Positions 10,801 to 59,600 of a DNA stretch of 64,000 bases are shown here, one piece after another. This DNA comes from Paracyclopina nana (lineage: Eukaryota > Arthropoda > Copepoda > Cyclopoida > Cyclopettidae). The DNA lies in assembly GCA_019096065.1 (NCBI GenBank), contig JAGUCH010000001.1, positions 14,880,001 through 14,944,000 on the forward strand, read 5' to 3'. A program made the position numbers and the translations under genes. Position 1 is the stretch's first letter, and each line of letters opens with the position of its first letter. Below the pieces are notes generated by a model. That model was not told the DNA's origin. It did not search any database and saw only the letters and a list, made by a program, of their open reading frames with translations.

Positions 10801-13348
10801 TAGGCAAACTTTAAGTTTAGGGCCTCGCACCATCTCCTCAACAAGCATGGCCAGGAAAAAAGTCAAACTTTCAAGCTTGAACTTGTTTTCAATAACGAAT
10901 CCTTGATTCCTTGTTTTTCCGGGTCTTTTTTCGTGTTTGTTCACAGTTTGGCGCCTTTTTTTTTGGCTCCAAAACTGACCAATGTTTCCAAGGAGGGCCA
11001 AAAAAACTGTCATTCAAAGAAAGCCTTAAAGAAAGCTTGTGCCTTTCAATAACAAAAACACATTCTACAATTAGCTGAGCTAGCATTATTTTATATTGTT
11101 GTTGTTTCTAAAAGGTTTGCACCTCAAGTTGGGAGAGACTGAACCTTTTGGTACTATTCCCATGTGCTTTGACAGCAAAATGGTCTTGTTGTTTTCCTTC
11201 ACCCCAGGGCCCAAATTTAGGTCTTCACTGTCGTTTGTCTTAATAAAAAAGAGGCACGATGCAGCTATCACCTATGGTCATTGCCTTGAGTTTTCTATAT
11301 ACACGTTTGCTGATCGAAGCATACAACCATAAGAGATGGCATTATTCTGATGTGATTAGAAGCAGCATCAAACGTGGATAGCTTTGTAGGAAACGTGAAA
11401 AAGATATACTTTCCATTTTTGGCAATTGCTACGTTATATTTTATCACCCTTTTGTGGCTGTTATTGTTATGTGTTCTGTAAAAAGGGCCTGAAGTCCAAA
11501 TTTCGCCACGAGGAAGACAGCCACTCTCAAGACTACCTTTTGTAAATGGTTGACCAAAAATAGAGCAGTAAACGTCAGAAATACTATCTGCGTCCTAGGC
11601 GTCTAAGAAAAGCCTGTTCGTTTTGCTGCTTGATTTTAATTTTGTTTGCGCTATTAAGGCAGCCTTATGATGAGCCAGTTTGGAGACATGGCGAGATTGA
11701 GGTGTCTTTTTAGGCTTTGGCGAAAAGGTGCTTGTTTTCCTAGTTGTGCCAAAAATGCGATTTCTCAAGCCCTTTTCACATCAAAGTAAACCTGCGAAGG
11801 ACGATCAAAAGAAGTAAACGTCACAATTCCAATGATTTTTAGTTTGAGCTAATGGGGAATTTTGTTCACAGAAGCAAATTAGCGATTGAGATTTATTTTT
11901 TCAAGTCCAAAAGTCTTCTTCCTCTATTTGTCTCAACAAATCCGGCCATTTTAGATATTGTGCAATGTTGTAGGAACTATTTCTGGTGGACTCCAGAGGG
12001 GACAAAAAAATTGTCACTGAAGTTTGAAAACTTGAGGAAGGTCTTAAAGCCAATGGTCGATCCTGACTTTTTCCTGCAAAAGTTTGGCCTTCTTTGATTT
12101 TACGTCATCTCATCTTGTTTGCTTTTTCAACGAAATAATAATCAAAAACTCTTACACAACGTGTATTGCCTGGAGGTCTTTCTAATCAGATTATAGTCTT
12201 CTAAAAACTTTGGTTTGCCTATTAATATTGCCAACAGGGCTCAATCTTCGTCAGAATGAAGTTGATCGCCTTGCGCGTCCCAGCCCTCGTGTAGGTCGAT
12301 TTTCTATTGAGGCTGAGTGATCCCATTATTAGGGGTCACAATGTGAAACTTTGGAGTTGCTGTACTTCCCCGTGAAATATTTGACGTACAAGCCTTTTCC
12401 TGTATGAGGTTGAGACTCATAGCTTTCCGCAGATTTCACTACTGTGGTACGTTTATATACAGCCTCTCGCGCAAAAATAAATAAATAACGACGTTGTAAG
12501 CCCCACGCCCAGTAACTGCACTCAAGTTATCTATGACTCTAATATATTACGTTGTCTAGTCCAATTTATGCATTTCAGCACCACGCGATGTCCCATATGG
12601 AATGGAAGAGGCTACATCTACTGCTACCATAGCTTGCGTTCGAGGAAGGACATGCCTGCAATATGTCTGCTTTTCGTCCAAAAAGGCCTTAGTACGAGTC
12701 CACCTGAATGATTTTGCAAGCTGGCGTGTATAGTCGTTGGCCTGGTGGTGAACCTCACTGGTTTCCTCATCAGCTGGCTGTAGTGGTTCGAAAGAGAGCT
12801 GCTTCTTCACCTACTTCAACTTTACGGTATGTGCGCACAACGTCATGTTGAACAGGTCACACCATTAACTGATTTAGCGAAAACCAGCATGCAACAACGA
12901 AATCCAATATTTCAAATCATGTCATTTTCGTCCTGATGATTCGGGCTGATTAGGAATTCGTTCGTCTTGCAAGTTGGAAGCTATCTGATAATGAGGTTAG
13001 GGTATGTGTGCCATCCTCATTCTACTTGAGTTCAAAATTTGTAAATATGTCACACAAGTTCTGCGCGACGCGAAGGCCAAAAAAGTTTTCGAACGCCTCG
13101 CGCAATTCCCCAAGCTGAGATTGCCACACACATTTCAAGATGAAAGTTCTTAACACAATAGTTAATTTCGACCCCTTCATTTTAGATTCCCTCAAGGCAA
13201 AAGTTGAGAGGAGGCCGATGAAGAGAATCAGCTGGCAGGTGCGGAAAACCCTGACATGATGGTGACATCGCCCCGTTACTATTGAGAAGCCACTCAAGAA
13301 CGTGCCAAGAAGGAAGAATCTTGCAGTGCTCGGCCGTTATTCACCATA
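7847..13348. other. 5.5 kb spacer with no supported gene
   Basis: AT-rich DNA with short open frames on both strands, none with a recognisable domain or a convincing chain of splice sites. It begins with the PPM1G 3' untranslated region and ends with the promoter or leader of the coiled-coil/dipeptidase gene. A CTG/GCC-rich trinucleotide patch lies near 10316-10350. It may hold distal regulatory DNA or untranslated exons that cannot be seen from sequence alone. Confidence 0.4.
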
Positions 13349-16210
13349 ATGGATCAGGAAGGAGACACTGGCACCATCAGGCGCAAGATTCCCAAAATAG
13401 CCAGGCATGGCTCAAATCCTGACCTCTCTGGGAGCGAAAAGCGTGACACGAGGCCATCGAGGTCAAGACACATACAGACCCGAGTGGTGGCTCAGGCTCC
13501 GGTGGAACCTACTGGAGTCAGGGACGAGCTGCATAAGGAGCTTCAGAAGGCCCTGGATAGGCGGCAGCGCCGCCAACGATCCCAGAGTGTCAGTTCCACG
13601 AACGGTGAGCGGCAAAGATCTCCCGAAAAGTATCCGCGTGGTAGCCAAACGCAACCCCGAAGGCCTTCCTCAAGGCACACACCCGACGAGGCCACCGAGC
13701 GTTCTACCCCAAGTGTTCAATTTAATACTGGCAGTAGCAAGAAAAAGGAGAAGCCCGATGCCTTATCATTGGAAGGTAGCAAGGGTAGTAGTAGCTGTAA
13801 GGGTGCCAAAATGAGGCTTGATACTTTGCCCCCTCCTGAAGAGTTCAGTCAACAGGAAGAGCCACCGACTCATACTTGTGGGAGAGACTCTTCATTGCAT
13901 GGGGCACTATCGCCAACTTTCAAATCCAGAGCCGACCAACAATCACAGTTGCAGAAAGAAAGGCTTGAGCTGCTCGGCTCAGGCCTGACTTTTAAGCCGC
14001 CCGATCGGGTGAAAGACACAATCGAGGAGTCCCCGGTTAATGCTGCGGCAAATGTATTAAAGAGGCCGTCTACAGCGACCTCAAAGGCCTCCAGCAGAAA
14101 GCCTTCGTCTTCCAGTCATCATTATCATCACCACCATCATCATGCTGCCGCTAGTGAAGACATTGACCTAAAAAAGCAGAAAGAGAGGCTCCAGTATGAG
14201 CGGTATCTTCATGAGAAGCATGAGCTGGAGAGGGCCAAATTGGAAAAAGAAAGGCTGGAGTTTGACAGACAGCTACGGCAAAAGAGAGATGCGGAAAAAC
14301 GCATGGATCGAGAGAGACTCGAAGAAGAGCTGAGAGCTGAGCTGGAACGGCAAGAATTGGAGGAGCTCAAGAGGCAAGCTGAAGAGATTGAGCGCTTAAA
14401 GGAGCATGAGCGCAGGGAACGTAAAGAACGCGAACGTGAGCGCAGATTGGAGGAAGAGCGAAGGCAGAAAGAGGCGGAGCGCAAGAAGCAAGAACATATG
14501 GAGCGCGAAATGCAACGGCGCATCCAGGAGAAAATTCTGCGCGAGCAAAAGGAGCAGGAGCGCAGAGAGCAGATGGAGCGCGAGAAGCGAAGAAAGGAGC
14601 AGGAGCGCTTGGAGAGAGAGCGCAAGGAACGCAAGGAGCGCGAGAAGCGCGACAAAGAAGAGCAGGAGCGAAGAATGGCGGAAAAGCGGGAGCGGGAGCT
14701 TCGCGAAGCCGAAGAAAGGGAGCGCCGTGAAAAGGAGCGCCGAGAAAAAGAGCGCATGGAAAAGGAGCGCCTGGAATTTGAGCGCCGTGAAAAGGAGCGC
14801 CTGGAATTTGAGCGCAGGGAAAAGGAGCGCCTGGAATACGAGCGCCGAGAAAAGGAACGCCTGGAATACGAGCGCAGGGAAAAGGAACGCCTGGAATACG
14901 AGCGCAGGGAAAAGGAGCGCCTGGAATACGAGCGCCGGCTAGAATTTGAGCGAAGGGAGAACGAGCGGCTGGAGCTACTACGCAGGGAGCAAGAACGGCT
15001 AGAACTTGAGCGAAGGAAGGCTGACGCTGAGCGAAAGGAACACGAGAAGAAGGTGGAACTGGAACGCGCCGAGCGCGCAGAAAAACGTCGCAAAGAGAAG
15101 GCTGCAGAGGCTGAAGAGCAACAGCGTCGAATGCAGCAGCAGCAGCGCGAAGAATCCCTGATGATCGCGGAACGGGCCAGAGTGGCCGAGCTCCTGGAGC
15201 GCGAACAATTGGCGCGCGAAATCGCGGAAAAGGAGCGCATCGCCAAGGAGATGGCTGATCGAGAGCGTAAGGCTTTGGAAAAAGCCAAGAGACGTCGGAG
15301 TGCTCACGTCGTACCGGGTGGTTCCTATATGAATGGCGATGTCGTGGACAATATCGATCTCATGGGCTTTGCGACACGAATGTCCAATCAATCTGATGCG
15401 AGGCCAAGGCCTCATCATCCAACATCAAAGTCTGCTCGGAAGACGACGAAAAAGAAGTCCTACGACGAGGCTCTGTCCACGCTGGCCGCCACCCTGCCCC
15501 TCGTTTCGCCGAGGCGCCCAAGTCACTCCAGGGCCACCACAGCCTATAGCACCGCCCCGCGAGGCCGCCGCGGCTCACGAACTCCGATTGGCAAGGGCCG
15601 ATCGCGTTCTAACGAACAGAATGGAGGTCGTAATCAACCGGCCTTTGTTCAGTGGCGAGAAAGTTCCCTAGACTCAAGGCTACCGGCGGCCTCCTCGAAG
15701 CTGCGACCAGAGTCTCCTTTCAAGAAGAGCTCCGATAAGAAAGCATTGAGGCTTATACCGACACCCTCTTCTCCGCCATGCACTTGTGACGAGGAGGACG
15801 AGGAGGATGCCAATGGCCTGTTGGAGCCACCGCCGTGGGACCAGCGGAGTCGGGACTCGAGAATGAGCCGGGCGACCACGACGAGGACTGCGGGTAGCGC
15901 GGGCGGCTTCTCGTCCCTGGCCTCGAGCGCTTTCCAGCTGGCGGACAACGTATTTGCATCGGATGCCATCAGCCTCGAAGCCTTGAGCCCACGACCCAGG
16001 TCCCGCTCCAGGACACGCTCCAGGGCAATCAAGACCAACAATAGCAGTCGGAGGCGGAGCAGTTCCAGGCCAGTGGATTATCATTACCACCACGAGCTCG
16101 ATCGATGCAGGTCGTTTAGGCAAGGTGGCCTTGATCAGCATATTGAGTTTTGCAAATGCACGTGCGACGACGTTGCCTATTATGACGAGTTTGGCACCAT
16201 CCCCGAGAAG
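13349..16210 (+). other. giant exon 1: Ser/Arg-rich and trichohyalin-like charged helix
   Basis: 954 codons ending in GAGAAG|GTAAGC, a strong donor in phase 0. The region has a basic Ser/Arg-rich start, a His run (HHYHHHHHH), then about 380 residues (roughly 270-650) composed almost only of Glu, Arg, Lys, Gln and Leu with repeated KERLE and ERREK units. A second Arg/Ser-rich, SR-like stretch follows, and then a short Cys-containing segment, CKCTCDD. The charge pattern predicts a long coiled coil or a single stable alpha helix. If translation ran past the donor it would end at 16408, so a separate intron-retained product of 1019 residues is an alternative model. Confidence 0.75.
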
Positions 16211-19200
16211 GTAAGCCAAACGCAATTTTCCCGTTGTTGCACAATATGGCAACATCCTCCTCGCGCGCTGTACTACTTTCCGAAGAAAAAAGAGCTAGGT
16301 TTATTTTTTGCTCTGATGGCCAACAACGTTGAAGGCACTCACTATGTACGAGCTCTCCTCTATATATGGGCTTTCTCCCCATCATCCATGTACTGCTACT
16401 CTATATAGTACGTGGTAGTGGTACGCAGAAAGGCCGGCGCCAATCTCTTTCCATGCATGTCAGTTGCCAGTTTCATTTTTTAACAACCGTCGCGCGAGTC
16501 GTGACATTCAGTCAATAGGTCCTCTTCCTCCTCCTCTGCAATGCTCAATGCTGCTAAGAAAGAGACCAGGACGACAGTATTGCGATAAATGGCATTTCAA
16601 AGGCTGCTGCAACTTCCGCTCGCTCTTTATATGCTTAAACAATGAGCAAGGAAAAAGGAAAATTGTGGTCCTCCTGCACAGTACAATAGCCATTTGAATA
16701 TTTAGTTATGCAGATTACCTCGAAGGAAGGGCTGTAATTTACCGTCCATTCCTTGAACAAAGAGCCTTTTTATCAATTACTTTCTATATGAGATAGTAGT
16801 ATCTCCAAGAAATACGCGAGTAGAAAGGGGTTCATTGTTAGAAGTGTCATTTCATTTACGACTCGGTATCCGCTACACTTTGCAGCTACACCGCTCTAAT
16901 GAGGCCCATATACTTATTCCCACGCTCGTTCGCAGCATTCAGAATAAATCCCTGTGTTTAGTCGATGATGCAGCTGCAGCATGGCTTTCTCGCACCATTC
17001 GCGCAATAATAAATGGCCTCAGCTACCTCTTAAAATCGATAACCTTCGGTCGTGGCCATCATTTTATATGGGCCTCGCTATTTTGCGGATTTAGCTATTG
17101 ATTCCCATCGGAATGCCAGCTAGCTAGAAAACAAAGCTAGTGAGTGCCAGGGGCAAAACTTTTTAAATGGGTTTAGCAAAGCCACACTCTCCGATGGGAC
17201 CGCTATTCGGTTAGTAGGTCGCTCTATTCAATTCTAAGCCAAACTTAACTTCTGGAATCGGATATATGCTGCACAAATCTCTTCATCTAAGATGGCAAAA
17301 ACGCTTATTTGGTTCTAATCCGCGAGAACCGATCTTATCCCAGCATCTGTACAAATATAGTACAAGCAATCACCGATATATGCTTCACTATACCAAGTAG
17401 TGGCAATCTTGTTTGTGTAAGAGCCGTGCATGTAATACGTCCTTTAATTAGCATCAATGATGAGCCGTTCACCTATTGAGCATTGATTTTCCTTGCTATT
17501 TGGGCATTGTTTTCCTCGGAAAATAGCGCGGACGTTGTAACGAGAGTTTGATTCATTGTATCGATAAGACCTTGAACATCCTCGTAGGCTCATTTTTTGA
17601 CAGCTACATTCGCTTAGCTATACAGTAGAAGAATATCGAATATGGCTGATCTTTTGGGTCTGTTTTCCACCAAAGCTGTTTTGAGTCTGCTTTCTAATGT
17701 GTATCTAGGCAAGATCATTGCTGAAAAGTAGGAAACTGCCGGTGAGAAAAGCAAAAATGGATATCAACACTTTCAAGGATCATTTGGTAGCATTTTATGA
17801 GCAACTCATTCAGAGGATGTGCGCTTCCCTTTGTAATAATGGAAAGAAAAATGGAAGCATCTTACCTCAGAAGTGCCTCCTTCATGTTGGCTTCACTATC
17901 GTAGGTGGAATTCAGCAATATACCAAATGGTTAGACTTATCGGACTATCGTCTTTCAATTCTCGTAAAAATGAGTTCAAACGCCATATTGCCGGGCTTGC
18001 AGCTGTAACTGAAAACCATAACGTATAAAGAGGCACTTCGAGCACCCGTTTGTTTTTTTCAAGAGCGTCTGTGTAGTGTAAAAAATAGGGTGTCAGCTTT
18101 ACTCCTTTTCCTAGCCATTGTTATTCGAAACGCGGACTAAAAGCATCGGGACATACTGCAAAGCAAGGTGCAAACTAACCAAGAAGTTAGGTGAAAAATG
18201 CTAAGTGAAAAAATCGAGCTTCGATTGCACGCAAACAAATAAGCTAGCATGATCAAGACTAGAGCCAAGGCTGGCACAAATAAAAGTAGCACATCTACCA
18301 TCTGGTGGTGTTGGCTAATACCGATCCCAAAAAGGCACTTAACCTAGCTTTGCTGTAATACTATAAATAAGCTTTGCAGGGTGACTTTGATTGTTGCCAC
18401 ACCAGTGACCTTTGTAGAATAGTTGCAAATGCCACTAATCACGGCCAAAAATCCAGGATTGATTACATCTCGCACTTTCTGGCTCGCGCAAAAGAAAGGT
18501 GCGGGTCATTATATAGCAATTGGGCCAAAGTTACACTGAAATTGTGCTTGGGTTAGCCATTGCTCAGCAAAACCTGAAATATTCATCGCCGTAGCCAAGT
18601 GAATGTGTAGCGCAGCTTTCAACCTTTGCAGAAAGTCCACCTATCTAGCCATATAAGCTCAAATCTGGTAGCCGGATATTTCACCTTTTAGTAATTTAAA
18701 TAGCAGACCTAATTTAGATTGGAGCTCTCGATTTCACAATTGTGGAGCTGGAACTACCAAAATCCTTGCTTCCTTAATTCTTACTCTTTTTGTGAGTAGC
18801 TAGCGCGACTCCAAAAATAGCCTCGTTCTGGTTGCAGCAACCTCATCCGTTTCACTGTTCCCTTAACTTAGTTATTTGTGAAAAAGGACAACCTCGAGGC
18901 GGTACACTGAGATGTTTTCCTGACACACGCAGTTTTGTAATTCATTTGTCAGAGCTGCGCCATATATTAAAAAAAGGGGGAAGGAAGGAAAAATGGCTGA
19001 CCGCGCGCCACCAAAATATGAATATGGTCGAGTAAAGTTTATGGTGCTGTCAAGGCAAATCTAATTCACCGAAATGGCCTCCTTTCTTCTTGCCAGCTTT
19101 ATCGCGCTCCTCCCCACCCAACCCCAATTCACACTATGGAAGTCAGTCTTTATCTTGTATTAACATCACACAAAAGCTCGAAGTACTATTCCCCCAAGGA

Positions 19201-22200
19201 CTGATGATGGAAATGATATACTAATGGATGCAACCTCTTAATGCACGATGCATCAGGGAAGTCTAAAACCAACTTCTGGCTCAAGCTAATGTGCTTTCTT
19301 TGTTACATTTAGCGTTGGCACCGCAAGAACAAAGCACAATTGGAATTCAGCAATTCATTTCAACTGCCTTTTACCGATAGCTTTTGCTGCGTACGCGAGC
19401 AGACTGTAGAGCAGTTTATAAAAAGATACTCGTTGCCCCCTGTACTAGTAGCACAGCCAGCATGGCAAGGCTGAAAATGGCCTTTTAAACTTGAGTTGTC
19501 GGCTGCAAAATGGCTGCACCAACACTGAGGGACATTTCAATCGAAAAAGCTCCACTTTGGATGAGAGTAACTTCTATTTCGAAATTCCAAGTCACTCCGC
19601 CAAACTTTCTGCCACTCGCATGGCCGAAAGATACGCAAATTAAGGTCATAAAAGTTAAGCTGAGCGAAGCTGAGTTCTCTTGTTCCATTGAAATCACGTC
19701 ACTGAATCCCCGCTTGTTGCTCAACTAAGCCAGCCTTCAAAGCTCAAGTTATTTTGAATAATGTTTAAGGGAGCACATTGAGGTAGCAAAGGTTTAGCTA
19801 AAAGTGCGCACACTCATCACCTTTGTATCAGCAGCTGAGACTGAAAGTTAACTGTGCAAGCTGAGCTAGCATTGCAATGCGAGGTGCTGAGCAATGCTTG
19901 CAAATGTTCATGCCCACTGATGAACCTCCTAGCTAGTCTTTTATCAACATTTCAAGCAAAGCTTTTGTTGGGACCAACATGCAACTGTACAACCAACATA
20001 TTTTTCTTCTCTGCCTGTCTTGAAGCAATAAAATAAGGTCAGGGGTGGCTGTGACAGCTTTACGCTTCTCGCCTGCGAAAATATGAAGAAGAAGGCTCAT
20101 TAAACGACAGCAAGAATGACAGTGGCTAATTTCGCTCATCCTTAATTGTGGGCCACAGCTGAAACTTTCCAAATGTGTATGCTAATACTTTTTTGTTTGA
20201 CTCGTAGCCTTGCAATCATGCTGAATTCTTGATTAAAGCTATAAAAATCCTGAGAATGTTGCTGTTTTTGGTGCAACCTAGCATAGTGTCGCAGTGCAGG
20301 ATTTTAAGAAATGCCAGCATGCAGCCTGTACATTTATTTGTGCACAACAGATTTAAACGTGATCCAAAACAATTACGGCTTGCGCTGTGCTCACCAGTAG
20401 CTATACAAACTACCATAACTTCTTTTCCCCAGTTTTTTGCAATAGTGAGCACTTTTTCTTGTATACCAGAAAAACTATGAAACAAGACAGAATCTGGACA
20501 TTTCCCGTAATAATACTTTGGCTATTGCTAATGTTTACTCTAGTCTCATCAATTCTTCCACTAGTTCCGATATAAGTGTTGCAGAATACATACAAGCGGC
20601 AATTACATCTTCATTACTCTCATAAGATGTGTATTCATGTTCACGTGTTTATCTACACATGCAAACAAATAGCATTAGGCTTAGTTCATATACTCAGGTA
20701 ATTATGGTCACTACTTATGTAAAGCTTAACTGCTTCGCATCTCTCTCACTGGCTGAGCAAGATAAATGAATGTCTACGTTCGATCTAGCTTCCTTTGGGG
20801 TACAAAATTAAAAACGTCAAATGGCAGCCCTTTCTATTTATACTTTGACACTTGGATCTCTTTGAGCAAGCTTGTAGCATTCCAGAATTTGAATTTTCCC
20901 TTCATTAATCTTCGTTTCTGGAGCCATACAAGCTGAGAAGGAATATGTCAGTCTTTTGACAGACAAACAACATTAAATGGAAACACCAGGGTTAAAAGAG
21001 CTTGCAGGAAAGTTTTTTGCAATGCGTTGCAAGATGGTAGCAGCAAAGTGTACGAGCAAGGAAAAAGGAGTGTAACTTTGTGACAATTTCATTTCCCTCT
21101 CTGTGCTATGCCGAGAAATTGCAACCGTGACTCGTTCGGCTTGAACAAGCAAGTTTTGCAAATAGATACTACATATTTTTCTGGTACGTACCTAGATATT
21201 GCCGTTTAGCATGGCATTTCTTCCTCTTCAGCTTGGTTTTGAAAGCAACCAAGCGTATGGTCATGTCATTTTGGTGATAGCATAATCGACTGGCATTCAT
21301 AGCAGTTGTTGCCCAATATGGCATTAATTCCTGCTGCTGCTGCTGCAGCGTGCATGCAGCTGAAGCCACATGAAAAGCCTGGCCGAGAAAGTTCTTGCGA
21401 GGAAATGACTTAATCATGCTACTATGTTGTACACTAGGCTTATTGCATCTACCATGGGCGGATATGAGGTACTATTTTATCTTGATGGCAACAGCCTCAT
21501 TTAGCAGCATTTGTTTTCCTACCGTTTATGCGTTGACGTGCAGCTTATTATCACCTTAGGCCAATACATCCATTTGAGAGGAGGAAAAGTGAAAGACGCC
21601 AAAAGTTGCCGGATTTAGCCATTTTGGTCACTAACTCGATAGGCTGAGTAAATAGCTGCGGTTTTGCTCGTAAACAGGGCCATTTTTGACAAACATCAAT
21701 TTCTGGCCTTTGAAAAAGTAAAAAGTCAAATAGTTTATGGAAGTTGTTGGATGGTGGAGCCACGAAGAGCCACAAAGGAGCTTTTGCAGCCTTAGGCGAG
21801 CGTGGGTCTTTGAACAAGACTACTACTTCTAGATTTGGTCCTATACGAAACTGCTACTACTTCTCCTTTCACCTTTTAAATTATGTGTTATTCGTCAAGT
21901 TTCAGCACACAATCCGCGAAGCGGCCTAGACAAGAAAAGTTGGGCAGCAGAAATTAGACTCGTGGGGGCCATTATAAGTGAAAAACTTGCGTCCTCCACT
22001 GCAATTTTGAATTTTGGTCCATTTCCAGCTGCCAAGCTTCTCCTTTCTGGATTCTGGCGCCCCTGGTGGGCGTGATGTGAATCTGGGCCTGAACGGAAGC
22101 TCCAGAAGCCTAGCTTCGACCCATCCCATGTTGACATCGGTGCCTGCGGCCGCGAATGCCTCCACATTTGCAGCGGATGGAGCAGCCGCCCATCATCAGT

Positions 22201-25200
22201 ATGCAAGGGGTCAAAGTCCTCTGGCCTTGAGGGCGGCTCTGAGACATCATTTCACTTCGGCCGATGGCATCTCGAACAAAGTTCATACAGTCATCCTAAC
22301 AGGTACGATGTTCAAATGCAATCAAAGCAAGAGCATATAGAGGAATTCTCGTTAGCCTCGAAAAGCCCCTTTGACCTGACTTGCCTTTGACTACGCTACA
22401 ACTGAGGCGAGAATTGGGCTGGAAAGTACTCTGATGTTAACTTCATTTCAGGGCTCAAGCTTCGCCGCCAACACTGGTTCTTTTTGGGCTGCATCATAGC
22501 GTTATTGATCATCATTTTGTTTGTCTGGCTGCCAATCTCGAGCCAAGGGAGTCAAGGATCAAATCTCACCACCAACCTCATCATCTCACCGGAAAAACAG
22601 ATTGAAATGGTCTCGCTCCTCCTCAAAGAAGTTCCTCTCGTAGATGGGTAAGTCATGGTGAATTACTCCAACGTACGCTGTTCAAGCTGTATATTAAAGC
22701 TAAAGCATAGCTAAAATAGATAGCAATCATGATCAAGCTTGATTTTGCGCAAGAATTCTAGATGGGGAAGTGGGCAAACTTCTTACCATATTGCATTGCA
22801 AAGAAAGTAAAGGTGGCCAGTGTGCCAGCATGCTTTTTGATGCCGGCGGCTTAGTCTGTTAGCAAAAACTTTTGGAAGCTTTTGTGCCAGCACAGCCATA
22901 AGATGAAGACGATGATGGTGGTATAGTAGTGGTTTCCTGCTAGTGGTGCTGCGCTGAAGCCTTTGCAAGCTGCAGTAGTAGCTTTCTTTGACCAAGGATA
23001 ACTTTCTTGCGGTGAAGCTACCTAATCAATCTTTAGAAAGAGTGAAAATCCAATTACATTCTTTCTTCAAAAGTTTGTGACGTCGTTTTTCACCCGTATC
23101 TTTAAGGAACCACCATTTGTTTCGTTAAAGCACGGGCTTGAAATTGGCCCAATGCCGCAACAACTGACTGTAACTGAGGAGAAACCATGTGCAAATAATG
23201 CCACAGTAGCTTGTTCTCATAAAACTCAGTAAGGCAGGCAGTAAGCAAAGCAAGGCACTTTGGAAGCTCATAACTCAGTAAGTACAGAGCCGTTACCCAT
23301 TACTTTTCATTATTGCAGTGAAGTAGCTAGAAAGCTACGTGTTTTGCTAGTCGAGGAAATCCACTTTTGCCATCTAGAAATTTCGAGCACTTCATAAGTT
23401 TCTCTTTTGGGGCGCAGCCAAGAGTCAAGATCTTCAGTAGTAGTCTTCAACAAGGATAGGAGCCCCACTGATGCATGACTTCATACTATAAGCCAGTCGA
23501 CTCCTCTGGAAATGTTCCGCAGTGTACCATGCATGTGGTACAGTGGGAGTATGCAGGAGGAGGTCGGGTCTACTAACCAAAACTTAGGAAGGCAATTGTG
23601 TGGTAGTCTAAAGTGAGCTATGCATAATTGGCCATGACGACTGTGACAAATTGTTTTGTCGCTTGCAATGAGGCCACTTTTTTCCATTCACTCGCCCAGA
23701 TTATGCATGCCAAATACAGTTACGGTTGTTGCAACCTAATACATCTCGGGTCAACTACTGTGTCTGGGCTGTCTTCTTCATCTGTCAGCACAATACACAT
23801 GCTCATTCTGTGGCTACGTTTTGCAGGCACAATGATCTGCCCTGGAATATACGAAAGTTCGTCCACAACAAACTGGATACCGTGAACCTGACGCATAATC
23901 TCAAGTATGTGGATCCTTGGGCGAAGAGCAAATGGTCGCACACGGATATAGGCCGGATGATGGCCGGACAGATTGGATGCCAGGTAAAAAACCCATACTT
24001 AAACTACCTTGTTTTAGCTTCTAGTATAGTAGGTCTGATCCTTAGCAGGTTTTCTCATCACAACAAGGTGACGGGTATTTTAATACTCAGGCTTAGTCTT
24101 TCGCACTATTTGCATAGTCACACTATTTCAATAGCTCATGATAATGAAATAACAGCTATTTAAAAACATTCAGATGCTATTTAAATACATTCTGATGCTA
24201 TTTAAATACATTCAGATGCTATTTAAATACATTTAATGCTGTTAGCTATTTAAATAGCGTGACTATACAAAATTTGCGAAAGACTAAGTCCCTATGTAAC
24301 AAAAAGGTACTTAAATAGCAGAGTTTTCAGAAGTATCATATACGGTTTTGTGTATCAACGCATGAGAAATACGCCAGGAGGGCTCTAAATAAATAATGTA
24401 TAATACAGCATTGCATTGTGCTCAACCGAGATGCTCACGACTGAAATGTATCCATTGTGGAGCACAGTGCATTTTTTTATCCTCCGCACTCGGCCCATTA
24501 GTGACTCTGTATTTATACGTATTATGCTCATTGACTACAAATGGGCGTTGAGCATAACCTCATGCTAATTTTCCTTTCTCCTTCAGCTTTGGGTTGCGTA
24601 TGCGCCGTGTGGAGCTCAGCACAAAGATGCCGTTCAAGTGACTCTCGAGCAAATTGACTTGATTAAGCGAATGGTCGAAGCTTACCCCAACCAATTAGAG
24701 CTCGTTCGGTCTTCCCAAGGTGAGATGATTCTCAGGTTCAACTCGATCTCTAGTTAGATTCCTTTGCTTCTTGCGAGGCTTGCGGTGTTTTTGCAGAACG
24801 AGTTGCATCGCGTTGCAGCCATGATCATCAGAAGCATCTCTTTTGCCCTAGGCATGGTTTTGCATGTCATGTTTTATTATTACATGGCTTACCAGAGGGG
24901 GCTAAACCATAATTGATCTATTGGTAAAAGACCTCAGGAGCTAGCCTAGTTGTTCTAGCCATGAAGCATATACCACAATATATTCACTATGAAACGTCCT
25001 GGGATTTTTTATTATGATCGACAGGTCTATTCTGAAAAAGAACAAAAGCCTTGATCCATTCATATTGATGGGCTGTACTACCTGCAAAGTTTTCCGAGCT
25101 TTCCCTGTCAAAGGATGGTCCTTAGAGCTCCTAATTCGATGTATTCCATCAACGTATTTCCTGTTTGCTGTATGTGAAAGAACAATCCATTATCAGGGTC

Positions 25201-28200
25201 GAGTACGTCGTTGACCGGGCAAAGTATCCACATAGTACGCATATATCCATGTTCCTCAAGTTGCGCGCGCGTCAACTGGAAGGCATTATAGAGCCTCTTC
25301 TTGGGTTTACCAGCCCACATGTACCAAAGCAGATGTGTACTGTCGGTTTCCCTTTCCTAATGATTAATGCATCATTGCCTTGTTCGTTTTTGCACATTCG
25401 AGGCGCCCTAAAATCCAGCCAGCCATTCACAGTAGTGAAATGGATGGCGGGGTTCAATTTGTCAGCTGCACTGAGAGGCCAACAAAAAAGTCCTAAAAGC
25501 ATTTTATAGAGGGCTTTTCCCTGTCATGCGCTGTGCATAATGAAAAACGGGTCATGTCAAAGTGATGTGGCTACAAGAACCAGTTGAGAATTGGGCTGAG
25601 CTGGACTAGCTTTCGGGCAAAATGGCCAATTTGCCAAGTTCTCCCAAGTTGGAAACGCGCGACGACCTAACAGAATAATTCTGATCAGCACTTCTCTGTC
25701 GGGAAGCCAAGGCCATAATTTTGGGTGCGAAAGATGCCAAGATGAGGCTGTTCAATTTCTGGCTACTCTAGCGCGAAAAACACCCTTATAAAGCCTTATC
25801 TATTCCAACTTTATGGGGCCTTTTTTTAAAACTTAGTTAGGCCTAACTTTGAGAGATTCCTCTCTTCTTTTTGATCAAGTCTGGAGTGTGTGAGCTGGCA
25901 ACCGTGTCATCACTTCACGTAAAAATGGCCGTTTCGTGAAAGATGACAAAGAACGTGACGCTTTTCAGCATTGCCATCAAAATGCTAAGATGGTCGCGTG
26001 TGTGCGGCCAAGCCAATTTCTTTTTAGCACAACCGTATGGAGCCATATATGCTTAGGAGTGAAAATGCTTTTTTAGCCCAGGTTTATTAAGGGACGTTAA
26101 AGCTGGCTGGGATGACAAATCACGCTTCATCTATATGCATGCCATAAAAAATGCAGCGTTTTGTAAACAGCGGAGAATGACAGCGAAAACTGCACGTAGC
26201 GTTCCTGATATAGCAGCTTCTACAAAAAGTGACACTCCTTGAGGAATTGCACCCCAAATGGTTTATAGAAAAAGAGTTGACAATGGCTTAGTCTTTCGCA
26301 AGTTTTGCATAGTCACGCTATTTAAATAGCTCATAACATAAAACGTATTTAAATAGCCGCTATTTAAATACATGCAGAGGCTATTTAAATACATTTTATG
26401 CTATGAGCTATTTAAATAGCGTGACTATGCAAAACTTGCGAAAGACTAAGCCAGTGACAGAAAAATTAGGGCAAATCACGTCACCGTTTAACAGTGAAGC
26501 CGGGAGTTTTGCGACAGCAACTATGATATAAGGTTGTGTGCTCGCGCATTCGCTAGCTTGCCTTTAGTTGCTTTCACTACTTTGCTCTGGAGCCGTAAAA
26601 GCTAGAATGAAGTTGGTGGAGGAGAAAAAAGGCTGCAGAATGAAAAGCAAAGTCTTTCACCACACACACTCTTCTTCTGTGTAAGGGGAAATGAAGCTGA
26701 GACTATATTGACTAAAACACAAAATTGTGTGTACCAGATTCGACGGAAAAAACTAGAGGAGAAGCTGTATACGTACTGTGGCAGCATTTTTTTGTGCCTA
26801 GTCAATTTCACGCCATTAGTCGTCAATGCAGTGGGATTGCACTGCAAAAGTAGAGGGCTTTCTAGATTTTGCAAACAGAAATACAGCATAGCTGCAAGCA
26901 AATCTCGCATGGCCTAGATGTGTCCAATATCCTTTGAGTACCTTTTGGCATAACCATGATAATTGGGGAAGCTCTCGCAGAATGCTGTAGTAGTAGTAGT
27001 CTTGACATCTCAGTCCTTGCTTGAAGAAGGGCTTGTAGGTCTTTGTGTCCGCAAAATTTGCCCACAATTCTCAAGAAGCGCTAGCTCCTGATATGCAAGA
27101 GCATATACTATTCATTCCTTATTTCTTTCCTTGTTGGCAGCATCATCATATTAGGCCATTTAGAATGCATATTCCAGATTTAACGACTTTTCTTTAATGG
27201 CCACATTTCAGAGCTGGAGGCCGCGCACGCATCTGGCAAAATCGCCAGCCTCATTACCGTGGAATCAGGACACTCAATAGGCACAAGTCTGGCCGTGCTT
27301 CGGATGTTTCACCGTCTGGGTGCTCGATCTCTCACTCTGACCCACAACTGTAACACGCCATGGTATTAGATATGCGAGCTGCCAAATGCATGCCATTTGT
27401 TGTGTGCTTTTCTTACTCAAATACTTTCAGGGCTGACTGCTCGAAAGCGGATGCTCCTGGCAATGGCCCTGAACACAACGGATTAACCCAATTTGGCCGC
27501 GTAAGACAGTTTCTGCATTCAATGCTGTGCTTACAAAAATAGTATCCTCTTGCAGACTGTGATAGAAGAGATGAACCGTTTGGGCATGATTGTAGATCTG
27601 TCCCACAGCTCAATGCAAACCGCACTTGACACCCTGGCCGTCAGTGATGCTCCTGTGATATTCTCTCATTCTTCGGCGCAAGCCATGTGTAATTCCTCCA
27701 GAAACATACCAGACAACATCCTAAGGCTCGTGGTAAGGATTTTTTCTCCTTGAGCAAAAAAGTTGACTAGAATTTCGCATTGTCAAACGTGATGGATGAG
27801 GTTTCGCAGCTTGCTACTAGGTCGTCCTCATGCGGAGATTGTACTACATGCGTGTAGCAAAGCCGAAAAATGGATAAGCAGCCTGCCAAATGATATGCAT
27901 TTGCGAGCTTTTCCTTATTGATTTTACGAGAACATATCTTTGATAACAATTGTCACTTAAGAAGCACTGAAATCGACCATCTGTCTCTTTCCAGGGAGAG
28001 AAAAAGGGCCTTGTCATGGTTAACTTTTTCTCCTACTTCCTCACCTGTTCCAACCATTCCACCATAAATGACGTCATCAGTAAGATACATTTTATTCTGC
28101 GAAAAAACCGTACTTTTTCACAACTTGGCCATGTTCTAGCTCATTTGAACCATATACGAAGAGTGGCAGGCGTTGACCACGTGGGCTTAGGAGCCAGCTA

Positions 28201-29914
28201 CGACGGAATAAACTCGTGAGTAGTTGTGTCCTTATGATAATAATCAGTTTTCCGCGCCAAATGCCTATGGTCTCGAGATGCGTAGAAGGGTTGGAATGTT
28301 GAAAAGGAGGCCGGCTTGTCTGGAATGTGAGATAGACTCATGTGGACGATTTTTCAGACGTAAAAATGTCAATTCTCGACTATGTCACTCACCTCGCGCT
28401 GGCTTCCTCAAATAAAGCTAGAATTTTATTTTTCCTGCCGAAAAATTAGCATAACTAAAATGGCAAAATTCTGTAGCATTCCATCTCGAGCATATCATCA
28501 ACTTACGCTAACTGGTTTCACGAGCTCTGCCTCATAAACTGACGTTTCTGCTGATTTAGCTGCTAAGGAGCGTGCTCAAATTTGCATATCCTCAATTCAG
28601 CGGAAAAAAATAGTTATTTGTCATGCATCATCCCGCAAGCTTTGATCTTTAGTCCGGCAAAAAAAAATAAGCTTTGGCCCTGCCGCAAATCGCATTACAC
28701 CCATTCAAAGGGGTTAGTAGCGAATATTCACCGATCGCCTATTGCAGAACTCCGGTGGGCCTTGAGGATGTGTCGAAATACCCAGCTCTGTTCGTTTCCC
28801 TCCTCGCGAGCGGTTCGTGGTCGCCAGAGGACCTGAAAAAGCTCGCTGGACTCAACTTCCTTCGAGTTTTCAAAGAAGTCGAAAAGGTAGGAGAGAATAC
28901 CATCATCGATCTGCAGCTGCTACTCTATGCTTTTCTCGTTTTTGTCTGAAATCCTTGAGTTATTGCCGTCAATTTTGCTCTAGACTAAAGCTTTCGTTTC
29001 CGCCTTTGCTTTGGGCCTTTATGCCTGCTGGCAAAAGAGGCTGACATCCTTGTTTGTGTCGTGCCAATGCCTTAAGGCCGCTGGATCACGGAGAGTACAC
29101 TTGCCATCTAGAAATCGTAACAATTTTCGGAGGCAACGAATTTGGTTATCTGCACACGCTCAGCACATAATTCATGCTCAGAGCCCAAATTGTCTTCTTC
29201 GAAGGATGGCTTATTAGTGATCCCCTCGCACACATTCTTTTCCATGGGCAGCTTTTATTAAGCACTAGCGCAAATCTTTTGCCAGCTCATACTTGAAAAA
29301 GCTTATATTGATGGACAATTATGGGCAGTATCTCCCAGTTTGCATTGCATGCGTTTGGCAAGTTTAAAAGATGCTGTGCACTACGTAATTATCGGTTCGA
29401 TAATTGAGACGATAGAACCACACAGCAATTTTGAGTTAAGCAGGTCTCTAAAATGTTGCATTGCTCGAAGCATTTCTGAATAGGAAAGCTATTTCGCGAC
29501 AAGTAGGTTGCGTGAATGCAAAGCTTATTGTTCCGCTATGCCGCTGAGAGGAAAAAGCGAGCAATTTCTGTTGCATTATAAAATTGAAAGCGATTCACTA
29601 TTTTTAGCTCAATTTTCTCTTGTGTTGAAAGCTCCCGTAATAGACTTTTTGAATATTAGTCTTTCTTTATAGCTTAAAACAGTTGAAAATGTGCATCGAA
29701 AATGGAGCTAGTAAGAATAACGTGTAGTAAAAGAGCTAGCTTATGTCTTTGAGGATTTCAGATAAAAAATGGTCTCTTTTTTTTCTCTCTTGCTCGAAGG
29801 TGGCCATATCTTATTCTTCAGGTTAGCCGAGAGTACTACAAAAAAACGCCGCAAGAAAAGCAAATCCCGAGTAAGGACCTTGGTGACAATACTGAGTGCA
29901 AGACAGAATACTAA
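13349..29914 (+). CDS. membrane dipeptidase with giant Arg/Glu-rich helical N-terminal region (12-exon model)
   Basis: Exons: 13349-16210, 22029-22302, 22452-22647, 23827-23983, 24587-24719, 27212-27362, 27431-27500, 27556-27732, 27995-28079, 28140-28215, 28748-28886 and 29822-29914. Every junction is GT-AG and phase-compatible, giving 1470 residues. Exon 3 holds one hydrophobic helix ([19 protein letters not shown]). Exons 4-12 form a complete renal-type dipeptidase, a zinc enzyme that cleaves dipeptides: HNDLP (H1112, D1114), VESGH (E1225), VDLSH (H1298) and FSHSSA (H1319). The last two histidines are 21 residues apart, as in mammalian DPEP1. The C terminus (DNTECKTEY) has no hydrophobic tail, so a type II membrane anchor with an extracellular catalytic domain is inferred, unlike GPI-anchored DPEP1. 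The dipeptidase part is secure. Its joining to exon 1 across a 5.8 kb intron rests on phase match and the lack of an early start codon in exon 2. Confidence 0.75.
14761..14940 (+). repeat. six tandem copies of a 30-bp coding repeat
   Basis: Six contiguous 30-base units encode KERLE(F/Y)ERRE. The first two units carry Phe (TTT) at the sixth position and the last four carry Tyr (TAC). Other differences are mostly synonymous (GAG/GAA-CGC, CGC/AGG). This indicates recent in-frame tandem duplication inside the charged helix of exon 1. Less regular copies flank it on both sides. Confidence 0.9.
16211..22028 (+). other. intron 1 of the dipeptidase gene, or a spacer if there are two genes
   Basis: 5.8 kb of AT-rich sequence between the GTAAGC donor and the TTTCCAG acceptor. 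I see no exon with support. A 96-codon frame at 17718-18008 has no recognisable motif. If exon 1 and the dipeptidase belong to separate genes, this stretch would have to contain both a terminator and a new promoter. Confidence 0.45.
24090..24290. mobile_element. MITE-like inverted-repeat element, copy 1 (degenerate)
   Basis: The left end GGCTTAGTCTTTCGC... is mirrored at the right end by ...GCGAAAGACTAAGTCC. Further inside, AGTCACACTATTTCAATAGC on the left faces GCTATTTAAATAGCGTGACT on the right. No coding capacity. It lies in the intron after the exon ending at 23983. The same termini recur at 26283-26454, which supports a mobile family. The arms carry mismatches and no clear target duplication is visible, so this looks like the older copy. 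Confidence 0.75.
24155..24237 (+). repeat. four 21-bp tandem units inside MITE copy 1
   Basis: The unit GCTATTTAAATACATTCAGAT recurs four times head to tail (starts at about 24155, 24176, 24197 and 24218) with one or two changes per unit; the last unit is a base shorter. Copy 2 holds related but fewer units. The core ATTTAAAT is itself palindromic. Confidence 0.8.
26283..26454. mobile_element. MITE-like inverted-repeat element, copy 2 (well preserved)
   Basis: A 172-bp non-coding element whose ends are near-perfect inverted repeats of about 50 bases: TGGCTTAGTCTTTCGCAAGT on the left and its complement before 26453 on the right, continuing inward through CATAGTCACGC, ATTTAAAT and AGCTCATA. 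Both sides are flanked by TGACA (26278-26282 and 26455-26459), a possible 5-bp target-site duplication. It can fold into one long hairpin. It lies in the 2.5 kb intron after the exon ending at 24719, about 2 kb from copy 1. It belongs to a non-autonomous DNA transposon family that I cannot name. Confidence 0.85.
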
Positions 29915-53600: not shown

Positions 53601-56600
53601 TTACTATTCAAGGCCATCTTTTTGCAGAAAAATGTGCACTAATTAGCACGACATTGCATTAAGCCGTCCATTTATGGTATGAATCAAAGTCACGACGTGA
53701 AATTGTTCACTGTGGCATTTTTGTTGCTAACCCCTCGCTCGAAGTTTGAAGAAATGACGATGGTCGTCAGTGCATTTTTCCAATAACTAGCAAAGATTGC
53801 ATGCATCCACCTTTGGTATAAATGCCATGCTTATAGCTGCATAAACTCTGATCCTTTTCCTCGCGGATGCAATGGAAAACTTTCCTGCTCAAAGTCGTCG
53901 TTCAACTGTTGTTGGCGACGACAGCTTTGGCTTTTCCTGCATTTGAAAACCCACCGCTGAGTTAGCTTCCCACTCTACTTTTTTGGCCTTCATAATGTAA
54001 TTGCAAAAGAGGAGGGGGGACGAGGAGCCCCATATTTTGACAGGACTTTATGTGATGAAGAGCTCTTTCTGCGCACGGGGAAAACTTGCGACCTCGTGGC
54101 CGCCGCAACTTGATGTGAAAACTTTTGACGATGATGAAATTGGTAACGACCTCATTATTGCAGATTATCGTACATGCCAGCCGAGTGACATCAAGTGCAC
54201 GAACGGCCTTTGCGTGCCGTCGGAGAAAAAGTGCGATGGCTACTTCGACTGCAGGGACAAAACCGACGAGACGGGCTGCACTGGAATCTCGTGCGACCTC
54301 TCAGAATTCAGATGTGCCAATGGCGAAAAATGCATTGCTGAGTTCCAAAAATGCAACCACCGCAAGGAGTGCTCCGACGGGTCCGACGAGGAGGATTGCA
54401 GTAAGTTGATGGCAAAACAAGGCTTTTTCAGTTTTGGCCCAACAATGGAATTTTAATCAGCAGAGCATAGTGCGAAAAAAGTTGAGGGGAAAGTTTTGTT
54501 CCAGCAGTGTTCAAAACTCAATTTGAACTTGGGACCCCTTGCTGGTGCTGATGAGGCACTAAATTGACTAAAAAAGACTTTCATCTCTTCAAAAGCCCAA
54601 TTCTGGTCACATCCTCTGTAAGAGAAATCTGTATTTTCCAGACTTCCCTCCTTGCCACAGTGGGCAATTCCGGTGCGAAAACCACCGCTGCATTCCTGCC
54701 AGATGGCACTGCGACGGCTACAAGGATTGCACTGACGGCACCGATGAGAACAATTGCACGGCCATCACCTGCCCTGACAACAAGTTCGTGTGTCCGAAGG
54801 GCGGGCCCAACGCCACGCCCAAGTGTATCGACAAGACGAAGCTGTGCGACGGCCAGAAGGATTGCGAGGATGGCGCAGATGAGATGACTGCATGCTGTGA
54901 GTATTAAAGATTGATGACACGATGCCTTTCAAGCCAGGCTATTACGCGCCACTACCTGAAAAATCTTGTAGTAGAGCTTTTTCACTCAGTGGTGCTATTT
55001 TGGCTGCAATCATTTATCACCGCGCCACTATTATCATTATTATCACAATCATAATCATCGTCATAATGCACAAGTGTAAGCCGAAAAGGGGGGGTATTTG
55101 CCTCTTCAAAGCATATAGGTTAAGCCTCGTTAATGCAAACTAATGGCAGCAGTTTTCACATTACTGCTATAATTCACTCTAAATGTGATGTTTTTCTCCC
55201 TGCAGCCACAACGTTATGCTCATCGCTATTGTGCGAGCACGAGTGTCGATCCTCTTTGGAAGGAGGCGTTTGCGTTTGTCCCGAGGGAAAGAAAGTTGCC
55301 AACGACTCAAGGACTTGCATAGGTAAAGCATAATGATGCATCCTCCCAAGGGATATTCCGACACTGTATTGCTTTCAGATCAGAACGAGTGCGAGGAGTG
55401 GGGCTTTTGCGATCAGCTATGCTCCAACAGTTTCGGGGGCTTCAAATGCTCATGCGTGGATGGATACATCAAGAGTGCCGACGACAGGTGTATCGCCGAC
55501 CCTGCCTCCCCACAAATGCTCCTGTATTTCGCCTACCACAACAAAATCGTCGTGATGGACCAGACGGGCAAGTCGGTGAGAGAGGTGACCAACACCTCGG
55601 AAGCAAGCGGCCTTGACTTCCACTTGGCGAGCAAAAGCCTCTTCTATGCTGACACCGAGGCCAGAAAAGTGTTTAAGCTGAAGCTGCCCAACGGCGAGGA
55701 CGTTTTCACCCAATCCATCACGCCAGCCAGCCTCAACCCTATTCCGCTCGTGGAGCCGCCCAACACGGGGGCGTGGTCGCCCTCGGCGGTCGCCGTTGAC
55801 TGGATTGGCAATAACCTCTACATTGTGGACTCGCTCGGCCAAAAAGTCAACATCTATGATATTGACGGCCTTTATTGGACAATTGTCGTGTCCTCCAATC
55901 TCACCAGCCCTGTGGATATTGCGCTCGACCCCCTCATGGGAGTTATGTTCATCACCGACAATAACCGTGTCGTTAGGGTCAACATGGACGGAACACATTT
56001 GAGACCGCTCGTCGAGGACGCCGTTTATAAGGCCTCCGGCCTCAGCATCGACCTAACGACGAGGAGAGTCTTTTGGTCCGACATCCTCCTCGACTACATC
56101 GAGACCGTGGACTACAACGGCTTGAATCGCCAGCAGATCATCCGAGGACCTACGAATGTGCCTGCCCCCTCCAGGATCGCTGTGTTTGAGCGGTCCGTGT
56201 TCTGGACTGACGGCTCGAAGCAGGGCGTCTTTTCAGTGGACAAATTCGGAGGAGCCTCCACCAAAAAGTCCATCTACTCCATGGCCACTCAAACTGGAAA
56301 GGAGCCGAAGGCCATCAAGGCTGTCCACTCGCTTGTGCAGCCCGAAGGATACAACCCATGCAAGCAGAACGACTGCGAGCATCTGTGCATCGTGACCTCG
56401 ACCACGCCGGAATTGGGCAGCCAGCCCAGCCTCGGCTACAAGTGTGCCTGTGACATTGGCTACAGGCTCAAGCCCAACCGCAAAGGCTGTATCCGAGTGA
56501 CTGAGTTCCTGATGTATTCGCAGCAAAAGTTCATCAAGGGCAAAGTGCTGGATCCTGTGTCGTCGACCTTCAACGATGCCATCCCTCCAATCGTGTCGAG

Positions 56601-59600
56601 GTCAGCCCGTTTTGTGGGCCTGGACTTTGACGCCTACCAGGAGTTCATTTACTACTCTGACGTGATCCTCGATGTTATCTACAAGGTCAAAAAGGACGGA
56701 ACTGGCCGGGAAAACGTGCTCGCTAGCCAAAACGAGGGCGTCGAGGGACTGGCCGTGGACTGGGCTTCGAAGAATCTCTATTACATTGACAGCCGTAAAG
56801 GCACCCTAAACGTATTGAGCACGAGTAACCCCGAGTACCGGCGAACCCTTTTGAAGGACCTGAAAAGGCCGAGAGCGATCGTCGTCCACCCCAACAAGGG
56901 TCTCGTTTTCTTCTCCGAATGGGACCGTCCGGCCAACATCTCGCGAGCCAACATGGACGGCACCAACGTTCAGGTACTGTTGTTCATTTTTTCGGCTGAA
57001 AACATATAGGCTAAAAAATGCTCTTGATTCTCAGGTGTTCAGGAATGTCCTGTTGGGCTGGCCCAACGGCCTTTCCATGGATTACGAGCAGGATAGGCTG
57101 TATTGGTGCGACGCTCTGCTCGATCATATCCAGCATGCCAAATTGGACGGCACTGACGTGCAAACCATCTCTTCAGGCATGATCCGCCACCCCTTCAGCC
57201 TCGTTGTCTTTGGCAACAATCTGTTTGTCACCGACTGGCGCCTCGATGCCATCATTCAGATGGAAAAGACGACGGGAGCCAACGAGAAAATCGTGGAAAA
57301 AGTGGAGGAGAGCAACCGCTTGTATGGCATCAAAATCTACGCGAAAGAGGCTCAAGTGATCATCGACGGACATCCTTGCCACACAAATAATGGCGGCTGC
57401 CAAAAGCTGTGCTTTCCAATCCCAGACAACTCGACCAAAACTGGAATCACTGCAAGGTGTGCAATCAGTTGTATGGTAATTGTTAGCAGCTTGCTCATCT
57501 CCCCATTTTTCATTTTCAGTTGTGGGTGTCCCTATGGAGAGAGGCTGACTAGTGATGGAAAGACTTGCTCCTCAGACCCTTCTGCTGAGCCGCCAGTTCA
57601 AGCTTGCCCTAATTCCTGGGATTTCACGTGCGACAACCAGCGATGCATTCCCAAGACTTGGGTTTGCGACGGAGACGACGACTGCCTGGACAACTCTGAT
57701 GAAAACCAAAATTGCACCGCTCCCACCTGCTCCACGACAGATTTCAGGTGTGCCACGGGCAGGTGTATTCCCAGCTCCTTCAGATGTGATGGAGAAAACG
57801 ACTGCGGCGACGGTTTTGGTAAGCCCCTTTTCGACTTTGAGCACCCATGCAATGGTTTCGCTTCTGCCGCGAGTGAAACGAGCTTTCAACTTAAACGAGG
57901 CCATAAAATTTTCCATGCTTATTTTTTGATGGCCGCAAGCCAGCTCTAAATTGAATTAATTTGAAAAATGGCCCCCTTTACTGCATCACCAAACTCTTTA
58001 GGCCATGTCATTCCTCAAGCTCCTCTATGAATAATTCAGAGCTTTTGTCCAGCATTTGGATGCTTTATCTTGCGTCGTTGTTGTTGTTTTTGTAAAAAGG
58101 GGGTTAGAATTATGATGCTCCGGTTTGACTTTACGCTCGCCATTTTTGAAAAATTGCCCACAGACTTGACACAATGCGTTTTTGACTGCTGCCGCAGGAA
58201 AAATCCTCTGAAGATTTATGCTTTGAAGGGGGGAAAGTGAAAGCTTGCTTTTGGAGCCACTGCTACTGAGGGAGAAAAGACACGATCACGGTTGGCCTCC
58301 TCATGCATAATTCCATTTTCCCATAGTTGGCCGATTTGTCAACCGCCTCAAAAGCCACTTTATTACCGCCACCGTTTTTTTCCTCCATTTTCAGACGAAC
58401 AAGGATGTTCCAACGTGACTTGCGAGGCGAGCCAATTCAGATGCGACAACGGAAGATGCATCCCTAACACATGGAAATGTGACGGAGAAAATGATTGTGG
58501 AGATGCTTCCGACGAGGGCGATTTCTGCGCTGAAAAGACTTGTGCTTATTTCCAGGTGAGGCCTAGTTTTTTTTTATCTACTTTAATTGACCCTCATTAT
58601 TTATGCGCATTCGTGCATTAGAATTTTTAATGGTCATGCTCTTAATGGCTGTAGTTATTAGGCCAATTTTTGCTAGCACATACAAAAAAAATCATCATAT
58701 ATTCCTCTCCTGTTGCTCGTTTTCGTGCTCCGGTACAGGCAGGTACAAAAAGTTGACAGAGCACTTTAGCTAGAAAAAAAAGGTGAACTCGAATGGGGAG
58801 GCCCTTAGTCAATAGGCACGTTTATTGACACACATGCGCTGTTGGCCAATAGCAGCAGGCTGGAGTGAGCTGCCATTTACATGATTCCATGCTGCTTGAA
58901 CGGCCAGCTCTTGTTGGCTTTTATTGATTTTGCCTGACAACAACCAAGTTGAGCTCTTGTGAAACTATTCTGACTTGCATTAATGCTAGCCTCGAGGGCC
59001 TATTGATGAAATGCAATCACGCTATAGAGCTTAGCAGTCAAAGCCATCATCTACGTGAATCAAATGCACTTCTTATCGTTTTTTTTCCAAGAAACGGCTC
59101 ATAAAAGTCAGCCTAGTGTAATTAAAGTAGGAATATGTTTTAGAACCGGTATGAAGTATTTGTAGGTCTAGGCCAACTGTTATCGATTAAACACAGCCGT
59201 CAAAACAAAAAAAATTATATTGTTCAATAATTATTCCCTTTCCATTGCAGTTCACTTGTGAAAGCTCTGGCCATTGTATTCCACAATCGTGGAGGTGCGA
59301 TGGCGACAATGACTGCTTTGACAACGCCGATGAAAAAGATTGTCCACCCATCACTTGCTCGGGGTCTCAATTCAAATGCTCGAATTTGAAACAATGCATA
59401 CACGAGTCGTACAAATGCGATGGGATTCCAGATTGCGACGACGGCTCAGATGAGCTCGGGTGTCCCTCTGTGGCCCCCAACCAATGCTCAGACAAGCACT
59501 TCAAGTGCAAATCTTCCGGCATCTGCGTTCCCCAAGGCTGGTACTGCGATGGCACTTCCGACTGCGAAGACAACTCCGATGAGCCTTCATCCTGCGGATC

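Follow-up and report, generated by a model that had tools for sequence, protein, structure and literature searches.

Gene structure

The window, the whole 64,000-nt stretch of Paracyclopina nana DNA that was analysed, comprises bases 14880001-14944000 of contig C1 in a genome of 92 Mb and 10 contigs. Under the predicted splicing, 12 exons on its + strand (Table 1) give an uninterrupted reading frame of 1470 aa; the best parse of the - strand between 9001 and 31000 reaches only 7.7 nats. Exon 1 has Met first and is open throughout, within a stop-to-stop frame that opens at 13286. An in-frame stop lies before its start Met, which by eye has A at -3 and G at +4. Donor-like and acceptor-like sites at 10609 and 13185, also found by eye, would place an untranslated 5' exon, with its end near 10609, upstream of exon 1.

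The original prediction described a 954-codon exon with a phase-0 donor at 13349-16210, and both the frame and the coding score bear this out. It is likewise correct that the exon at 22029 is entered in phase 0 and has its first Met at residue 34; this exon is left in phase 1, and the start context of Met34 appears weak by eye (C at -3, T at +4). Exon 2 was further said to lead straight into the transmembrane (TM) helix and the dipeptidase. This holds for the mRNA but not for the genomic DNA, in which an intron of 149 nt lies between exon 2 and the TM exon.

Table 1. Exons and related features of the window gene (positions within the window) and of paralogue A (positions on contig C1)
Feature	Position	Strand	Description
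Exon 1, coding part	13349..16210	+	954 codons; predicted cytoplasmic tail; phase-0 donor AAG|GTAAGC
Exon 1, layout			Disordered Ser/Arg-rich part, then long charged helix (aa 270-647), then disordered part with Cys near its end (predicted)
Region coding the charged helix (aa 270-434, 450-647)	14156..15289	+	Contains 30-bp tandem repeats, 14720-14935
Intron	16211..22028	+	5818 nt; no exon inside in the best + strand parse
Exon 2	22029..22302	+	91 codons + 1 nt; predicted cytoplasmic part next to the membrane; first Met is residue 34
Transmembrane exon	22452..22647	+	LKLRRQHW, hydrophobic helix, stalk, up to VPLVDG before the HND motif
M19 exon	23827..23983	+	H and D of the HND zinc motif
M19 exon	24587..24719	+	
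M19 exon	27212..27362	+	Zinc Glu (VESGHS)
M19 exon	27431..27500	+	
M19 exon	27556..27732	+	Two zinc His (DLSHSS, FSHSSA)
M19 exon	27995..28079	+	
M19 exon	28140..28215	+	
M19 exon	28748..28886	+	
Last exon	29822..29914	+	Stop TAA 29912-29914; product end ..DNTECKTEY, without hydrophobic GPI tail
Paralogue A, exon P1	13522651-13522953		101 codons, Met first, phase-0 donor
Paralogue A, exon P2	13533614-13533869		Phase 0 in, phase 1 out; no Met
Paralogue A, TM exon	13539693-13539864		No Met before the TM helix

Coding statistics

Coding character was scored with a 3-periodic Markov model, for which 26.8 kb of further open frames from the same genome served as the training set. Exon 1 has a log-odds of +150.9 nats in its own frame; the two remaining frames give -180.5 and -280.6. 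Beyond the 16210 donor, a read-through of 198 nt scores -21.2 nats, and exon 1 therefore most likely ends at 16210. Exon 2 scores +14.8 nats, which is reached by none of 45 stop-free non-coding segments of equal size. The 99 nt (33 codons) before Met34 score +6.7 nats, which is reached by 5 of 844 stop-free non-coding segments and by none of 111 within the interval 16501-21950; the training sequence of the non-coding model includes the source of the 844 and the 45 segments, and not that of the 111. The coding look of these 99 nt suggests that exon 2 continues a reading frame begun in an exon further upstream. The coding model is blunt, as the TM exon, which is real beyond doubt, scores merely -1.1 nats.

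Between 10000 and 22028 there are 43 candidate initial exons with a phase-0 donor and a score above 3, starts inside 13300-16210 being counted where they end at 16210. Fifteen of the 43 end at 16210. Exon 1 scores 157.9 as an initial exon, and the best candidate outside it 4.6.

One gene or two

Whole gene structures were compared with a small gene finder, whose splice models were built on homology-placed sites (13 donors, 12 acceptors), none of them from the 16210 and 22029 junctions. The best parse joins 16210 to 22029 and stands 11.2 nats over the best two-gene parse, which needs a last exon of 18 nt (18064-18081) and a first exon of 15 nt (21454-21468). In chimera controls, nine other genes were set before the dipeptidase region and the gene boundary was tried every 120 nt. 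The joining advantage in these nine ranges from -0.0 to 7.8 nats and is positive in 6/9, so the gene finder is biased to merging; the real case exceeds all nine chimeras, by a margin that is not wide. The real neighbours in the window, a UBE2F-like and a BTB gene, are correctly separated. Local errors of the finder include a split of exon 1 at 13604/13842, a TM exon started at 22500, and several missed exons at the end of the dipeptidase.

The interval 16211-22028 holds four AATAAA and five ATTAAA hexamers. Together with the tendency of the finder to merge, they favour two separate genes, namely a soluble charged-helix protein ending in the 5.8-kb interval and a dipeptidase with its own small first exon. 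Such an arrangement is unlikely, as it requires the 18-nt and 15-nt exons at a cost of 11.2 nats, the sequence past 16210 scores as non-coding, and paralogue A (see below) likewise requires an upstream exon with Met. Given the four AATAAA, some transcripts could end within the intron.

The original prediction also drew on the lack of a Met before residue 34 of exon 2. The observation is true but is a weak argument alone, since a start at Met34 still gives an N-terminal anchor. Stronger arguments for the fusion are the coding scores ahead of Met34 and the absence of Met from the matching exon of paralogue A. A start at Met34 would belong to one gene with two promoters, in which an extra short form has a leader near 22029 and the long tail is optional; this is a possible arrangement, though not the expected one. 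The short form would be a dipeptidase with a cytoplasmic tail of ~65 residues and can exist alongside the long form. A parse starting at Met34 reaches 37.6 nats, little less than the 41.6 of the best parse without exon 1 (a parse with a 15-nt first exon), and short tails exist in the family, for example in paralogue B. Opposed to this are the coding look of the 99 nt before Met34, the weak start context, and the choice of the exon 2 acceptor and not of Met34 by the finder in 9/9 chimera controls. These points leave room for a possible additional minor short form.

The fusion of the helix exon and the dipeptidase in one gene, by a predicted splice across 16210-22029, is supported by the gene-structure comparison, the coding statistics and the equal intron phases of a paralogue. 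The exons thus probably form a single + strand gene for a type II membrane protein with a charged cytoplasmic tail and an M19 ectoenzyme.

Paralogous genes

The genome contains 16 M19 matches at four places, which are the window, C1:13.54 Mb (paralogue A), C8:2.536 Mb (paralogue B) and C1:0.711 Mb (paralogue C).

Paralogue A lies at C1:13522651-13550033, ~1.35 Mb from the window gene, and the HND exons of the two are 70% identical. As P2 has no Met and the TM exon has none before its helix, paralogue A must, to judge from these exons, have an upstream coding exon that supplies the start. The finder, with splice models from the window only, joined P1, P2 and the TM exon at 6.3 nats above its alternative; it ended P2 early and missed P5 and P6. 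The equal phases at equal places in both genes suggest that they share a plan of tail exon, juxtamembrane exon and TM exon. In sequence, the first two exons of paralogue A do not resemble their counterparts in the window gene (shuffles equal the score in 235/500 and 381/500), and it is intron phase and position alone that would point to a common descent of the tail exons. With an equal gene plan and a tail of ~190 residues, paralogue A is the natural comparison for the window gene.

Paralogue B, inspected by eye, has its TM anchor after ~12 residues. In C8:2535846-2536897 its frame seems, by eye, to be broken in two conserved places, ahead of the HTDLP-like motif and again at the FSHSS-like one; decay of this copy or an error of assembly may be the cause. 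Paralogue C begins, by eye, with a signal-peptide-like stretch.

Charged tail

The tail has 403 residues without P or G (aa 253-655), and 64% of them are E, K or R. In the charged region, residues of opposite charge are overrepresented at i+4 (z 4.6 and 7.3), and those of like charge underrepresented (z -6.7). Hydrophobic residues occupy 2.34 of 8 a/d positions per 28 residues, compared with 2.53 in shuffles, and there is no peak at period 3.5. The high E/K/R content, the opposite charges from i to i+4 and the lack of a hydrophobic heptad are the criteria of a single alpha-helix (SAH), and all three are found in aa 253-655; the pattern fits an SAH and not a coiled coil. AlphaFold, run on the single sequence, predicts helices at aa 270-434 (165 residues) and 450-647 (198 residues), plus a short one at 58-74, with the rest disordered. 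The mean pLDDT is 52.5, with ~70-89 in the helices except for 401-470 and the C end, and alignment-free models of this kind are weak evidence. The charged helix spans ~378 residues (aa 270-647) with a weak spot between the two helices and, if straight, would be about 57 nm long at 0.15 nm per residue. The presence of 30-base tandem repeats at 14720-14935 points to growth of the helix through repeat expansion.

Mammalian M19 dipeptidases are dimers, and a coiled coil in the tail might dimerise the enzyme in place of a monomeric SAH. The long AlphaFold helices agree with such a coiled coil and equally with an SAH. The coiled coil is quite unlikely, given a/d hydrophobics no commoner than in shuffles, the missing 3.5 period, and the excess of opposite and depletion of like charges at i+4.

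The 954 residues of exon 1 contain no Pfam family at E<=1 and have no solved-structure relative at E<=0.001 among 177635 distinct sequences. Against its own genome, exon 1 finds itself and six weak matches with E from 0.0018 to 0.64 (48 of 174 candidates scored). The helix had been called trichohyalin-like. Trichohyalin has Glu/Arg-rich helical repeats, and set against this general description the likeness is one of composition. It does not extend to identity, as exon 1 has no Pfam family, lacks by Pfam the N-terminal S100/EF-hand domain of S100-fused trichohyalin, and has the salt-bridge pattern of an SAH. The name should be dropped.

Dipeptidase domain and membrane anchor

The Pfam M19 match covers profile positions 3-319 of 319, with E 4.2e-112 and 374.9 bits against a cut-off of 26 (the query missing one Ser near the C end). 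Human DPEP1 matches with E 3.1e-101, and HND, VES, DLSHSS and FSHSSA align with its zinc residues. The five zinc ligands H, D, E, H, H are all present, according to the M19 ligand list in PMC6372189. The full dipeptidase of the original prediction is found as a complete Pfam M19 domain closed by the stop codon at 29912-29914, and it is probably an active, complete zinc dipeptidase of family M19.

Hydrophobicity on a Kyte-Doolittle-type scale (KD-19) peaks at 3.0 at aa 1056, while the maximum in exon 1 is 0.8. The TM helix has a basic flank, KLRRQH, on its N side, which fits an N-in, C-out orientation and thus a predicted type II protein. The predicted product (gene model ending at 29914) ends in ..DNTECKTEY and lacks a C-terminal hydrophobic GPI signal. 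The expected contrast with the GPI-anchored mammalian dipeptidases, that is, an N-terminal membrane anchor and no GPI tail, holds.

Comparison with known systems

Human DPEP1 (renal membrane dipeptidase, PDB 1itq/1itu) belongs to M19 and has the whole catalytic domain in common with the window gene. DPEP1 carries a signal peptide and a GPI anchor, whereas the product of the window gene is predicted to have a TM anchor on its N-terminal side, preceded by a tail of ~1050 residues, and to lack a hydrophobic tail at its C end. The dipeptidase genes of the fly include CG42750 and CG44837. Drosophila CG6154, a putative DPEP1 orthologue, has 434 residues with the zinc residues H71, D73, E184, H257 and H278, as given in PMC6372189. 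CG6154 is an arthropod M19 dipeptidase like the window gene, but its 434 residues leave no space for a long tail.

The SAH domains of INCENP and myosins are rich in E, R and K, with charged residues from i to i+4 and no heptad core, as is the tail of the window gene. Natural SAH domains have up to 80% E/K/R according to PMC5812594, compared with 64% in this tail. The INCENP helix, of 213 residues and ~32 nm, was at first interpreted as a coiled coil; it binds microtubules and has been proposed to act as a leash (PMC4571873). INCENP is the closest described working model for the tail, and any binding by the window gene is putative. Unlike in INCENP and myosins, the helix would here belong to the intracellular tail of a surface enzyme, with a span of 378 residues. 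A literature search by titles and opening lines, with few subscription journals covered, found no dipeptidase with such a tail, which is weak evidence that the predicted protein is an M19 family member with a tail architecture new to that family.

Proposed function

The first ~1050 residues would be cytoplasmic and consist of the charged helix flanked by disordered segments. They would be followed by one TM helix and, outside the cell, by the M19 zinc dipeptidase, so that an N-terminal anchor would replace the GPI anchor of the mammalian dipeptidases. The ectoenzyme would most likely cleave dipeptides, or leukotriene-D4-like substrates as DPEP1 does. The likeliest role of the tail is that of a rod or leash: contacts of the helix or its flanks with the cytoskeleton or a scaffold would hold or position the enzyme; a cytoskeletal role is hypothetical.

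A wider and rather doubtful idea is that the arthropod surface dipeptidases of this group swapped the GPI anchor for a TM anchor with a fast-changing tail. In the window gene, this tail would be an SAH of ~57 nm that couples the ectopeptidase to microtubules, actin or a scaffold, and the cytoskeleton would position hydrolysis of peptide or leukotriene type. If the transcript is real, this well-known ectoenzyme family includes a protein held from the cell interior by a very long charged helix. It would then suggest that the cytoskeleton can set the place of dipeptide hydrolysis on the surface, and would provide a test case for an SAH as the leash of a membrane enzyme.

Other features of the window and genome

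Two related palindromic elements lie in the dipeptidase introns at 24090-24288 and 26278-26459, and their inverted arms measure 45 and 84 nt. Over stretches of 50 and 92 nt the two elements are 90-92% alike, and both carry TATTTAAATA repeats. The elements look like a small inverted-repeat transposable element.

A search for the nematode SL1 leader with a pattern allowing <=2 mismatches gave one match with 2 mismatches and none better, with 0 in the control; a nematode source with trans-splicing is not supported.

Open frames recur at a distance of 2482 bases in C1:697513-705341, as a tandem copy. The same stretch has two near-identical frames of 371 aa at C1:697513-698625 and 699089-700201, which look like DEG/ENaC channels. 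The genome has 80 matches to the cuticle family Chitin_bind_4, which speak for an arthropod. In the window, 54001-64000 is occupied by a large gene with long exons that runs beyond the window and that, from its translation, we take to be LDL-receptor-related (LRP/megalin-like).
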